A stretch of 64,000 nucleotides of DNA from an uncultured Chloroflexus sp. Its GTDB lineage: Bacteria; Chloroflexota; Chloroflexia; Chloroflexales; Chloroflexaceae. Position numbers and translations under genes: made by a program. Where the stretch lies: assembly GCF_937951745.1 (NCBI RefSeq), contig NZ_CALFBQ010000044.1:1-64000 (forward strand), written 5' to 3'. The notes beneath the pieces are model-generated. The model saw only the letters and a program-made list of their open reading frames with translations, was not told the DNA's origin and searched no databases. Below, piece after piece: positions 3,751 to 9,807 of this stretch; positions within the stretch are counted from its first letter, which is position 1; each line of letters opens with the position of its first letter.

Positions 3751-4551
3751 ATGGCGATCGAGATTGCTTTTGACAAGATTGCCGATGTCTACGACGCACA
3801 GCGCGGCCATTCGCCAGAGGTAGCGATAGCGATTGGGCAAGCGATTGTCTCTCAGACTGGAATTGGCGCGCAGGTGCTTGAGATCGGGATTGGCAGTGGC
3901 CGGATCGCACTGCCAACGGCGGCAGCCGGAGCGCAGGTTACCGGTATTGACCTCTCAACCGCGATGTTAGCAACCGCCCGTGAACGAGCTGCACAAGCCG
4001 GTGTACCACTACGGCTGGTTAAGGCCGACGCTCAAACCTTGCCCTTTACCACCGCAACCTTCGATGCGGCACTAGCAGTGCATGTGCTACATCTCCTCTC
4101 TGACTGGCGGACGGCACTCGCAGAAATGGTGCGTGTCGTCAAGCCGGGTGGGGTCATCATTCAGGGGATCGATTGGCGCGATCCAGCATCGTGCGTCGGC
4201 CTACTGCGCGGGCAATTGCGGCAGGCAGTTATGGAATTGTTGCCCGGCGCGCGCCCTCCCGGCGCCGGTGCTGCGGTTACGCAACACCTCGCCAAATTGG
4301 GCGCACCGGCAGGTGAACCGATCACAGCAGCGCGCTGGGAACGGGCAATCAGCCCTGCCGAGGTCATTGCCGGCATGGCCGACCGGATTGACGCCGAAAC
4401 GTGGGCACTCGACGACGAGGTCTTGCAACAGGCGATCAAACGAGTGCAAACGTGGGCGAGCCAGCGCTGGTCTGATCTTCACGAACCGCAGCTCGTTGAA
4501 CATCGCTTTCTGCTGACAGTTAGCCGTACCAGTATCGCAACGCCGGCATAG
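3751..4551 (+). CDS. Class I SAM-dependent methyltransferase in bch operon
   Basis: 266 residues. Motif I is VLEIGIGSGRIALP (about residues 31-44), followed by the acidic ribose-binding GIDLS and a VVKPGGVII motif typical of the Methyltransf_11 (UbiE/COQ5-like) fold. The C-terminal third is not recognisable. It sits between the PucC-like carrier and bchF, 98 bp after the former and 22 bp before the latter, so it is probably co-transcribed. It does not look like BchM (Mg-protoporphyrin methyltransferase) or BchU (C-20 methyltransferase). The substrate is therefore unknown; a pigment, quinone or regulatory role is possible. Confidence 0.75.
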   Translation: MAIEIAFDKIADVYDAQRGHSPEVAIAIGQAIVSQTGIGAQVLEIGIGSGRIALPTAAAGAQVTGIDLSTAMLATARERAAQAGVPLRLVKADAQTLPFTTATFDAALAVHVLHLLSDWRTALAEMVRVVKPGGVIIQGIDWRDPASCVGLLRGQLRQAVMELLPGARPPGAGAAVTQHLAKLGAPAGEPITAARWERAISPAEVIAGMADRIDAETWALDDEVLQQAIKRVQTWASQRWSDLHEPQLVEHRFLLTVSRTSIATPA

Positions 4552-6172: not shown

Positions 6173-7405
6173 ATGCCTGCGCATCCTAAGCAGAAGCAGC
6201 CCGGTTCAACCGCACGAATGCTGGCCGTCTACGGCAAAGGCGGCATGGGCAAGTCGTTCTTCACCACCAATCTGGTCAGTAAACTAGCCCTATTGGGAAA
6301 CCGGGTGCTCCAGCTCGGCTGTGATCCCAAGCACGACAGTTGTAACGCCCTCTTTGGCGGAGTCAGTCTGCCCACGTTGGGGGATGTCTGGCGTGAATTT
6401 AAAGAAGCCGGACGTGAGGATGAATTGGCAGTACACCACGTAATCTTTAAAACGACCGTTATGGGCCGGGCAACCGTCTACGGTTGCGAGATCGGCGGCC
6501 CTGAAGTTGGGCGCGGCTGTGGTGGACGAGGCATCACCTTCGGCTTCGATATGCTCGAAAAGTTTGGCCTCAGCCAATGGGCGCTTGATTATGTGGTCAT
6601 GGATTTTCTCGGCGACGTGGTGTGCGGTGGTTTCGCAACCCCCCTCTCGCGATCATTGGCCGAAGAGGTGATTATCCTCTGCGGCAACGACCGCCAGAGC
6701 CTCTATGCGGCCAATAATATCGCCAGCGCCGCCAAATATTTTGCCAGTATGGGTGGACGCACTAAACTGCTGGGGTTGGTGGTCAACCGCGACGATGGCA
6801 GCGGTGTGGCGGCCCGGTTTGCCGAGAAGATCAACCTGCCCATCTTGGCCAGCATCCCGCTGGATCGCACAGTGCGCGAATTGGCCGACGCTTGCCAGTT
6901 GGCGCTGCAAGAACCGCGCTTCGACGCGATCTTCGACCGGCTAGCTCGCCAGATCATCGATCGCACCTTGCCGGCAGTCAAGATGGAAGATGTTCGCCCG
7001 CTCGAGTACAAAGAGTTCTTGAGCGTGTTTGGGGCCGAAGAGCCGGACATTGTGCCTGATGGCGCCACCGCAGAAGAACTGTTCGGCGGGCAAACGGCGC
7101 GGCGGCCAGCGCCGGTGATTACGCTCGGTCTGATGGAACGGGCGGTTGGTGATAAGCCGGAGATGGACGCCCCTACCCGCATAGTTGTCAAGCGACTGCT
7201 CAATGAGTTGGGGATGTATGTGACCGAAGCCAACCACGATCCGAAGAAGGGTATGACGTTGACCGTTGATGGGCATACCACTATCTGCATGGGCAACACC
7301 GACGATCTTGACAGCAAGATAGCAATTCTGGCCGCGTTGCAGCGATCGGGCGAACAATTCCGCTACGTTGACCTGCGCCGTCCGGCCAGCCCGTTCTACC
7401 GATAG
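6173..7405 (+). CDS. bchX: Chlorophyllide a reductase iron protein (subunit X) with C-terminal extension
   Basis: 410 residues. The first 270 or so are a NifH/BchL-type ATPase: P-loop YGKGGMGKS at residues 20-28, the CDPKHDS switch region, and two cysteines (C116 in GRGCGG, C151 in VVCGG) that ligate the intersubunit [4Fe-4S] cluster. BchX delivers electrons to BchYZ, which reduces ring B of chlorophyllide. Typical BchX proteins are about 330-360 residues. Here an acidic linker is followed by about 85 extra residues ending in FRYVDLRRPASPFYR, which resembles the C-terminal beta domain of FtsQ/DivIB proteins. bchY and bchZ are not in this window, so the catalytic partner is encoded elsewhere. 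Confidence 0.93.
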   Translation: MPAHPKQKQPGSTARMLAVYGKGGMGKSFFTTNLVSKLALLGNRVLQLGCDPKHDSCNALFGGVSLPTLGDVWREFKEAGREDELAVHHVIFKTTVMGRATVYGCEIGGPEVGRGCGGRGITFGFDMLEKFGLSQWALDYVVMDFLGDVVCGGFATPLSRSLAEEVIILCGNDRQSLYAANNIASAAKYFASMGGRTKLLGLVVNRDDGSGVAARFAEKINLPILASIPLDRTVRELADACQLALQEPRFDAIFDRLARQIIDRTLPAVKMEDVRPLEYKEFLSVFGAEEPDIVPDGATAEELFGGQTARRPAPVITLGLMERAVGDKPEMDAPTRIVVKRLLNELGMYVTEANHDPKKGMTLTVDGHTTICMGNTDDLDSKIAILAALQRSGEQFRYVDLRRPASPFYR

Positions 7406-7444
7406 CCGGCTTTGTAACCGTAAGCCGGATGATGGAGGTGAGCA

Positions 7445-7606
7445 ATGCGGCTACACCTTGCGACAAAACCCACCGAGTATCGCGTAGCACCGCTGGCGCT
7501 GAGAATACGCTGGTGGATTGAGGGATGGATCTGGCGTTGGGGCCAAACCGCAGCAGACTTGCACGCGGACAGCCCAGAGTTGCAACATCCGCTGTGGAGG
7601 CGGTAA
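7445..7606 (+). CDS. 53-residue tryptophan-rich small protein in bch operon
   Basis: A short frame (ATG 7445, TAA 7604-7606) preceded by GGAGGTG 5-9 nt upstream. Its stop overlaps the next ATG as TAATG, so the downstream DUF169 gene is probably translationally coupled to it. The protein, beginning MRLHLATKPTEYRVAPLALR, is basic, with five Trp in the middle (IRWWIEGWIWRW) that could form a membrane-surface amphipathic helix or a pigment-contact segment. I do not recognise the family. The good ribosome site, exact overlap and location between bchX and bchI argue that it is real; it could also be a leader peptide. Confidence 0.6.
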   Translation: MRLHLATKPTEYRVAPLALRIRWWIEGWIWRWGQTAADLHADSPELQHPLWRR

Positions 7607-8343
7607 TGAGTGAAGTCGATGAGATTCCTGATTTGAAGGAGCTCAACCGCCTGCTGATCGAGCGGATGCGGGTGAAGCGGCGTCCGGTTGCGATCACCTA
7701 CTGCTACGATGGGCCGCCACCGGGATACGAACCGGCCAATGTGGTGGCGTGCGCAATCGTGCGCGAAGCCGAACAAGGACGGCGGGTGTATGTTGATGCC
7801 GAGCATCATGACTGCTGGGTCGGGCAATATCACCTCGGTCTGAATCCCAATCCGGGGCCATACATTACCGAGGGTGTCTATCTGACTGACGCGCAAGGCT
7901 TCTATACGCCGGAAGCAGCGGCCTGCAATAAACAGCAGAGCTACTCGCTGCCAGCGGGCATGATCAAGGCATTGGCCGCCGCGCCGCTCGATGACGTGCC
8001 GGATGGTGTGCCGGTCGATCTGATGGTGTGTGTGGTCGATCCACAGCGGGCGATGCAGATCGCCGGGGCAGCCAGCGTGCGGATCGGCACATTTCCGGTT
8101 GGTGAATTGGGCGCTAGCGCCTGCGCCTCAATATTCGCTGCGCCATGGCACACGAAAAACTCAGTGTTTGCGATTGGTGACGGCGGCGGACGGATGCATA
8201 ATCGGCTCGATCCGAGTGAAATGTTCGTTTCCATCCCGCGATCACATTTGCGCTACGTGGTAGAATTAATAGAGAACTTCCGCATTGATCCGCAGAAAAT
8301 GCGAGAAGTAATTATGCCGTCGTATGCCGCAAAGGCAAAATAG
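7606..8343 (+). CDS. DUF169 family protein
   Basis: 245 residues from the ATG at 7606 (GGAGG at 7597-7601, coupled to the preceding stop). A longer frame from 7525 overlaps the small upstream gene and is less likely. The sequence fits DUF169 (uncharacterised; also found in archaea): KRRPVAITYCYDGPP near the N-terminus, a CAIVREA segment, DCWVGQYHLGL, and a late GELGASACASIFAAPW and GGGRMHNRL. Several cysteines (in YCYDG, DCW, AACNK, ACAS) could bind metal or a cofactor, but no catalytic motif is established. Its place between bchX and bchI suggests an accessory role in pigment synthesis. That is inference from context. Confidence 0.8.
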   Translation: MSEVDEIPDLKELNRLLIERMRVKRRPVAITYCYDGPPPGYEPANVVACAIVREAEQGRRVYVDAEHHDCWVGQYHLGLNPNPGPYITEGVYLTDAQGFYTPEAAACNKQQSYSLPAGMIKALAAAPLDDVPDGVPVDLMVCVVDPQRAMQIAGAASVRIGTFPVGELGASACASIFAAPWHTKNSVFAIGDGGGRMHNRLDPSEMFVSIPRSHLRYVVELIENFRIDPQKMREVIMPSYAAKAK

Positions 8344-8363
8344 CCGCGAGAGGAGTGAACACT

Positions 8364-8558
8364 ATGCCAAGCGGACTCGGTGAAGCCACGCAAATGATCG
8401 GTCCGTTGACGCCAGCCATCCTGTGTTGGGCCTGTTTAATCCTCACTGTCCTTGGCCTCGGTCTGACATTCCTGTGGACGAATGTTACCGCCTATGCACG
8501 CCGCACACGCAACGGGCGGAAACCAACAGCCGGATCGGTGGTCAAGACGCAGCGGTAA
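8364..8558 (+). CDS. 64-residue single-pass membrane protein in bch operon
   Basis: Starts at ATG 8364; AGAGGAG at 8349-8355 fits this start better than the in-frame GTG at 8355. The protein has one hydrophobic helix (about residues 12-37, TPAILCWACLILTVLGLGL continuing to FLW) followed by a basic tail (YARRTRNGRKP), so the C-terminus is probably cytoplasmic. Twenty bp separate it from the DUF169 gene. The family is not recognised. It may anchor or organise soluble bacteriochlorophyll enzymes at the membrane, but this is only a guess from location and topology. Confidence 0.65.
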   Translation: MPSGLGEATQMIGPLTPAILCWACLILTVLGLGLTFLWTNVTAYARRTRNGRKPTAGSVVKTQR

Positions 8559-8694
8559 TTCGGCCCATAGCGGGATCGCGGTACACCGGTCGCAAGAGGT
8601 TGTGATCGGGTTGTCCTTGTTATCCCGCCTAATTCGGGTTTGATGGGTTGGGCGGGCATCTGCCCGCTCATTCATTTTGCAAAGGTACGACGCA

Positions 8695-9807
8695 ATGACT
8701 AAAGAACACGACCAAGCAGTCACGACAGCCGAACCATCAGCAAATGGTGATACTCCGTCTACCAATGCTCCGATTCCACCGTATCCATTTGTGGCCATTG
8801 TTGGTCAAGCAGAATTGAAGTTAGCCCTTTTGCTGTGCGTCGTTAATCCGACGATCGGTGGGGTCATGGTGATGGGTCATCGCGGCACGGCCAAATCAAC
8901 CGCCGTGCGCGCGCTTGCTGCCATGCTCCCACCGATCAAGGCCGTTGCCGGTTGCCCTTACTCGTGCGCCCCCGATCGTACCGCTGGCCTGTGTGACCAA
9001 TGCCGAGCCGTGCCCAACCAGACTGGCAAACCCAAAAAGCCGAGCGTCATCAATATTCCGGTGCCGGTAGTTGACTTGCCGCTCGGCGCAACCGAAGATC
9101 GCGTCTGTGGCACGCTCGATATTGAGCGGGCATTGACCCAAGGCGTGCAAGCGTTTGCCCCCGGCCTGTTGGCCCGCGCCAATCGCGGTTTTCTCTACAT
9201 TGATGAAGTGAATCTGCTCGAAGACCATCTGGTTGACGTCTTGCTCGACGTAGCAGCGTCGGGTGTGAACGTTGTCGAGCGCGAAGGTATCAGTGTGCGC
9301 CACCCGGCCCGCTTTGTGCTGGTGGGTTCGGGCAATCCCGAAGAGGGCGATCTGCGGCCACAGTTACTCGACCGCTTTGGCTTGCACGCCCGTATTACCA
9401 CCATTACCGATGTCAGTGAGCGGGTGGAGATTGTCAAACGACGCCGTGAATATGACGCTGATCCGTTCGCGTTTGTCGAAAAGTGGTCGAAAGAGACGCA
9501 GAAATTGCAGCGCAAGATCAAGCAAGCGCAACGCCGTTTACCCGAGGTGGTATTGCCCGATCCGGTGCTGTACAAGATCGCCGAACTCTGCGTTAAACTC
9601 GAAGTTGATGGCCATCGTGGCGAACTAACGTTGGCCCGCACGGCAACTGCACTGGCTGCGCTCGAGGGGCGCAACGAGGTGAACGTGAACGACGTGCGCC
9701 GGATTGCGGTGCTGGCGCTGCGCCACCGGCTGCGCAAAGATCCGTTGGAGACGCAAGACGATGCGGTGCGGATCGAGCGGGCAGTGGAAGAGGTGTTGGT
9801 GCCGTAA
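8695..9807 (+). CDS. bchI: Magnesium chelatase subunit I
   Basis: 370 residues, the usual length of BchI/ChlI, the AAA+ ATPase that with BchD drives Mg2+ insertion into protoporphyrin IX by BchH. Walker A is GHRGTAKST (about residues 61-69), the Walker B region is FLYIDEVNLLEDH (about 166-178), and the BchI-specific cysteine-bearing loop CPYSCAPDR...LCDQC lies between them. Sensor/arginine elements (SGNPEEG, PQLLDRFGLH) are intact. The ATG at 8695, with AAAGG upstream, is preferred to the TTG at 8677. bchD follows after 257 bp; bchH is not in the window. Confidence 0.95.
   Translation: MTKEHDQAVTTAEPSANGDTPSTNAPIPPYPFVAIVGQAELKLALLLCVVNPTIGGVMVMGHRGTAKSTAVRALAAMLPPIKAVAGCPYSCAPDRTAGLCDQCRAVPNQTGKPKKPSVINIPVPVVDLPLGATEDRVCGTLDIERALTQGVQAFAPGLLARANRGFLYIDEVNLLEDHLVDVLLDVAASGVNVVEREGISVRHPARFVLVGSGNPEEGDLRPQLLDRFGLHARITTITDVSERVEIVKRRREYDADPFAFVEKWSKETQKLQRKIKQAQRRLPEVVLPDPVLYKIAELCVKLEVDGHRGELTLARTATALAALEGRNEVNVNDVRRIAVLALRHRLRKDPLETQDDAVRIERAVEEVLVP

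Follow-up and report, generated by a model that had tools for sequence, protein, structure and literature searches.

The window, by which we mean the whole 64,000-nucleotide stretch of Chloroflexus DNA analyzed here, carries a bch operon in the order pucC-like, methyltransferase, bchF, bchC, bchX, W53, DUF169, TM64, bchI, bchD (Table 1). The three frames between bchX and bchI are all present as the initial annotation had described them, including their coordinates, ribosome sites, and overlap. Purine-rich ribosome sites precede W53 (GGAGGTG), DUF169 (GGAGG), and TM64 (GAGGAG), and the stop codon of W53 shares one base with the start codon of DUF169 (TAATG). The C. aurantiacus locus tags are Caur_0417 for bchX and Caur_0419 for bchI (PMC3150298). 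By inference, the DUF169 gene of that species is Caur_0418, and the W53 and TM64 genes seem to be without a locus tag in the Caur_ annotation. Farther upstream in the window, a SAM methyltransferase gene (3751-4551) lies between the pucC-like gene and bchF; it evolves faster than its neighbors and is found in only part of the family.

Table 1. Positions of genes, codons, and signals around the three frames, in window coordinates.
Feature	Position	Strand	Details
bchX, chlorophyllide a reductase iron protein, 410 aa	6173..7405	+	TIGR02016, E 8.8e-143, 475 bits, residues 15-302
W53, 53-aa Trp-rich protein	7445..7606	+	ATG 7445, TAA 7606
bch-type DUF169 protein, 245 aa	7606..8343	+	ATG 7606; PF02596 match
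Codon of Cys49	7750..7752	+	conserved across most of the DUF169 family
Codon of Cys70	7813..7815	+	conserved across most of the DUF169 family
Codon of Cys173	8122..8124	+	conserved in all sequences compared
Codon of Asp192	8179..8181	+	Cys in most other DUF169 proteins
Extended -10 promoter element (putative)	8258..8266	+	TGGTAGAAT, TGGTAnAAT form; within DUF169 codons 218-221, 106 nt upstream of the TM64 start
TM64, small RC-LH subunit (by sequence match), 64 aa	8364..8558	+	ATG 8364; orthologous to PDB 8YDM chain N; corresponds to R. castenholzii protein Z
Intrinsic-terminator-like hairpin and T-run	8649..8679	+	consensus scan; between TM64 and bchI
bchI, Mg-chelatase ATPase subunit	8695..9807	+	TIGR02030, E 2.4e-193, 642 bits

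All three frames evolve as protein-coding genes. Among up to eight genomes of the genus Chloroflexus, mean dN/dS is 0.085 for W53, 0.027 for DUF169, and 0.042 for TM64, values that indicate purifying selection. Third codon positions account for 564 of 906, 1856 of 2157, and 611 of 750 differences, respectively. None of the frames is broken in any of these genomes, while the two alternative forward frames contain stops in nearly all genomes compared. The initial annotation had staked its two short frames on their conservation in other species, and both proved to be conserved: low dN/dS, differences concentrated at third positions, and unbroken reading frames identify W53 and TM64 as genes. Across the family-level group f1, identity is mostly 36-47% for W53 and mostly 41-97% for TM64.

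TM64 has a single clear match in the PDB, the "hypothetical protein chain N" of entry 8YDM, to which it is near-identical over its full length (phmmer E = 7.5e-37, residues 1-64 to 1-64). The M chain of 8YDM matches the PufM of the source genome itself (E = 3e-208), and the entry is therefore a Chloroflexus RC-LH structure. Chain N is identical to the translated TM64 orthologue of another genome in our set, G007; the entry itself is silent on where the gene lies and how it is controlled. We infer that 8YDM belongs to the cryo-EM paper on the Chloroflexus aurantiacus RC-LH by Huang et al., (doi 10.1111/jipb.13853), which a 2025 paper lists among its references (PMC12650329).

In the Roseiflexaceae, tblastn gives no clear match to TM64. 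The frame directly 3' of DUF169 in these genomes encodes a small membrane protein that matches "subunit Z / reaction center small polypeptide" of the R. castenholzii RC-LH (8hju_Z, E = 1.1e-34). Profile-profile comparison relates the TM64 and protein Z families with a probability of 93.6 (E = 2.1e-7), and both genes follow DUF169. R. castenholzii protein Z (WP_041331144.1) is thus like TM64 in the immediate position of its gene, its single helix, and its profile. It differs in sequence, with a pairwise identity of only 20% over 40 columns, and in its downstream neighbors, which are bchY and bchZ rather than bchI and bchD. The published accounts differ on the helices: protein Z has been modeled between LHalpha11 and RC-M and is said not to overlay the H-subunit helix (PMC10516601), and a "protein h" has been named at that helix position (PMC10432797). 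On these sequence comparisons, TM64 is almost certainly a single-helix structural subunit of the RC-LH, known so far as a deposited chain. In the initial annotation, each of the three frames was a candidate for an accessory or assembly role in bacteriochlorophyll synthesis. TM64 does not fit that proposal, because of its match to chain N, its profile match to protein Z, and the place after DUF169 that the two genes share. An RC-LH subunit that had entered the PDB as no more than a "hypothetical chain" can now be given a gene, which is wired into the bacteriochlorophyll operon, together with its evolutionary history and the signals that likely control it.

The likely control signals flank TM64 on both sides. 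The string TGGTAnAAT is found within the 150 nt upstream of TM64 in all 35 f1 genomes, each with a chance expectation of 0.3-0.6%, and the search string has 44 matches in total on both strands of 580 kb. Its distance to TM64 is 95-108 nt in 33 of these genomes and 116 and 128 nt in the other two. The string overlaps DUF169 codons 218-220 (GTG GTA GAA). Across the 12 genomes with an intact DUF169 gene, there is no other stretch of at least three consecutive codons that is identical throughout, and just 9 of 164 invariant degenerate residues are encoded by a single codon. The matching residues are coded freely in the Roseiflexaceae, and R. castenholzii, unlike the TM64 locus, has no conserved TGGTAnAAT at these codons. 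The element also occurs in f1 genomes that have no DUF169 gene, where it heads a fossil of the DUF169 3' end. It has the sigma-70-type extended -10 form (TGn-TAnAAT) at a conserved distance, though this consensus may not be that of the Chloroflexus RNA polymerase itself. A simple TTGACA/TATAAT scan finds no good -35 near the element, and the same scan missed the element itself.

These observations suggest with good confidence a putative promoter for TM64 embedded in the 3' end of the DUF169 gene, a feature absent from the initial annotation. The conservation and position of the string, together with the absence of a clear -35, would also suit some other nucleic-acid signal, such as an RNA-processing or regulator-binding site for the TM64 transcript. 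We consider that improbable. The string has the extended -10 form, and one position of its hexamer varies freely (G, C, A, and T) while the remaining positions hold. Furthermore, the identical string is found just upstream of open frames elsewhere in the source genome: the fuller version, TGTGGTAnAATW, is present in nine copies, eight of which sit 4-58 nt before an open frame.

At the same place downstream of TM64, each of the eight Chloroflexus-genus genomes has a strong terminator-like hairpin that beats 20 of 20 shuffles. The stem is kept while its sequence shifts between species, with TGGGCGGGC/GCCCGCTCA in the window and AGGCAGGCG/CGCCTGCCG in G007. The simplest reading of the embedded promoter and the hairpin would make TM64 a separate transcription unit within the bch operon. 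Transcription of TM64 would start from the promoter marked by the extended -10 in the final 30 codons of DUF169, and the hairpin terminator would partly insulate TM64 from bchI-bchD. Such an arrangement may let the cell produce the structural subunit and the pigment enzymes at different rates.

The DUF169 protein itself belongs to a distinct branch of its family. It matches PF02596 over profile positions 2-208 of 209 (E = 1.7e-37, 129.7 bits against a cut-off of 27) and is a member by that measure. We surveyed 158 genomes of the class and scanned public genomes in addition. Within the survey, orthologues occur in all eight Chloroflexus-genus genomes, the Roseiflexaceae-like group f4, some f1 genomes, one f3 genome, and G085; the public scan adds Anaerolineae phototrophs (Roseilinea, Thermoflexales). 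A profile of this bch-type protein scores its intact members above 340 bits and all other Chloroflexota DUF169 proteins below 60 bits. The clade is found only in phototrophic Chloroflexota, mostly adjoining bchX or after bchXYZ. The order is bchX-W53-DUF169-TM64-bchI in Chloroflexus, bchX-DUF169-Z-bchY-bchZ in Roseiflexaceae, and bchX-bchY-bchZ-ICMT-like-DUF169 in the Anaerolineae phototrophs, with bchZ assigned by position and sequence rather than by profile. The ICMT/PEMT-like membrane methyltransferase between bchZ and DUF169 in this last group (PF04140, E = 1.8e-20) lies at 7271-7873 of locus L161, with equivalents in L164, L167, L197, and L200. In one Roseiflexus genome, DUF169 is split by a frameshift or an assembly error (L066 5557-6263, the same as L166 8001-8707).

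In G085 the reaction center is of type I, and a type II center is absent; the DUF169 gene is nonetheless present, though not next to bchX. No DUF169 orthologue was found in G086, a relative of G085 in which BchX is present. BchX of the window continues for about 105 residues past the TIGR02016 domain; the extension is alignable in type II Chloroflexota loci, and the BchX matches of G085 and G086 end at residue 286.

Neither single-sequence nor profile searches of the PDB identify a solved relative of DUF169, and the literature search returned only passing mentions of DUF169 / COG2043, with no function. Fold assignment from the predicted model was attempted, but the best hits from Foldseek (E = 0.08) and VIA-align (Z = 4.5, thiolase-like) are not trusted.

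Pfam DUF169 (PF02596, COG2043) and the bch-type proteins share the whole domain, as well as Cys49, Cys70, Cys173, and Arg196. A fourth cysteine, at position 192, is present in most members of the family; the bch-type proteins compared all have another residue there, Asp in Chloroflexales and G085 and Glu in the Anaerolineae type. They thus keep three of the four cysteines, and since the four-Cys pattern is not part of the Pfam definition, profile membership stands. The bch-type proteins are further set apart by additional conserved residues of their own and by their linkage to bchX/bchXYZ. In the AlphaFold2 model (pLDDT 89.8), each of the four residues sits at the first turn of a helix or immediately ahead of it, and each of these helices comes after a strand; this predicted placing fits a shared site. 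Moreover, other DUF169 genes, from three families (L208, L209, L212, and L231; a small sample), have a gene for an NfuA-like Fe-S carrier at a distance of one or two genes. The NB-cluster of dark-operative protochlorophyllide reductase, an enzyme of (bacterio)chlorophyll synthesis, is a [4Fe-4S] cluster with three Cys ligands and one Asp ligand. We take the likeness to the Cys/Asp set of DUF169 as a lead only and claim no homology, the DUF169 cluster being putative.

Judged by residue conservation, DUF169 would most likely bind a putative [4Fe-4S] cluster through Cys49, Cys70, Cys173, and Asp192. It may then aid BchXYZ as an electron relay to BchX, or as a donor or protector of its cluster. 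The linkage to bchX/bchXYZ, the presence in G085, the cysteine pattern, and the NfuA-like neighbors all point to a [4Fe-4S] helper of the chlorophyllide a reductase BchXYZ, to which we would give slightly less than an even chance. The protein is not essential for bacteriochlorophyll synthesis as such, because its gene has disappeared several times from phototrophs in which BchX remains.

Two other roles for DUF169 deserve consideration. The gene directly precedes an RC-LH subunit gene in both Chloroflexaceae and Roseiflexaceae, as would be expected if it encoded an RC-LH assembly factor made together with TM64 or protein Z instead of a partner of chlorophyllide reductase. This seems unlikely, as G085 has DUF169 in the absence of a type II reaction center, a finding that favors pigment synthesis over the RC-LH as its place of action. 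In addition, the Anaerolineae phototrophs carry DUF169 after bchXYZ with no TM64- or Z-like frame seen after it, and TM64 has its own promoter element and persists where DUF169 has been lost. The linkage to bch genes, the strong purifying selection, and the sharp separation of the clade are also compatible with DUF169 being an enzyme that itself catalyzes a step of (bacterio)chlorophyll chemistry, such as a ring or side-chain modification, in place of a redox or cluster helper. We regard this as about as unlikely as an assembly factor: several lineages with BchX have lost the gene with no evident replacement, and the fold searches found no match to a known enzyme. A helper of BchXYZ remains the best explanation, and to that extent the proposal of an accessory factor in bacteriochlorophyll synthesis is supported. 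The result ties an uncharacterized family to a defined pathway with testable chemistry, namely the exchange of a carboxylate for a cysteine.

W53 is a real, family-specific, helix-forming Trp-rich protein. Its conserved motif is TEYxxAPWHLRLRWW...WxW...NPLWRR, with Y12, A15, P16, R20, R22, W23, W24, and W51 invariant in the alignment, and the predicted structure is one long helix spanning residues 17-46 with moderate confidence (AlphaFold2 pLDDT 70). No relatives were detected in the PDB by single-sequence or profile search, 8YDM included, or in domain-profile searches. The overlap may couple W53 to DUF169 in Chloroflexus, and on that account the frame might be taken for a mere translational coupling leader. 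This is very improbable, however, given that the amino acid sequence itself is under selection (see dN/dS above) and that the frame is retained in most genomes without DUF169. The persistence of W53 after the loss of DUF169 makes a different working partner probable. The gene is missing from the bchX-DUF169 interval in Roseiflexaceae. Roseiflexus has no chlorosomes (PMC10432797), and a link between W53 and chlorosomes is our guess. W53 is confirmed as a gene; the part in bacteriochlorophyll synthesis suggested for it would be speculative. Taken jointly, a TM64 transcription unit, a DUF169 Fe-S helper, and a genuine W53 give a reading of the locus that we hold at a probability of roughly 60%.

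The history of the DUF169 gene can be followed in the genomes that no longer have it. On the BchX+BchC tree, its distribution requires at least five changes, three of which are forced by well supported branches. These changes are losses, because remnants exist in many genomes without the gene. Five such genomes contain short matches to the DUF169 C-terminus between W53 (or bchX) and TM64. The possibility that these encode small functional proteins was ruled out, as they have stops, frame breaks, or no start of their own, but all five decayed remnants retain TGTGGTAGAATT. Across 23 genomes without DUF169, similarity to its 3' codons begins at the element and continues toward TM64, and in 11 of them it beats all 920 shuffles. 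Upstream of the element, DUF169 similarity is seen in only one of the 23. The genomes thus form a natural series, from which the decay of a coding gene and the survival of the putative promoter embedded in it can be read.

A broader interpretation is that bch-type DUF169 proteins constitute a novel type of accessory protein for nitrogenase-like reductases, with a three-Cys-plus-carboxylate [4Fe-4S] cluster and acting with BchX. The DUF169 gene would carry the promoter of an RC-LH subunit, and its 3' end would be kept as a promoter fossil after the death of the gene in many lineages, with successive stages of decay still visible. We offer this as a tentative proposal that is, as a whole, rather doubtful. 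The literature searched, with most subscription papers outside its scope, yielded no account of the place of the TM64 gene, the element in DUF169, the fossil series, or the bch-type clade with its ligand swap. In G021 and G022, molybdate-transporter-like genes, judged by eye to encode a binding protein and a permease, are inserted in the interval between bchX and TM64 (L111 5820-8800 and L112 9270-11400).
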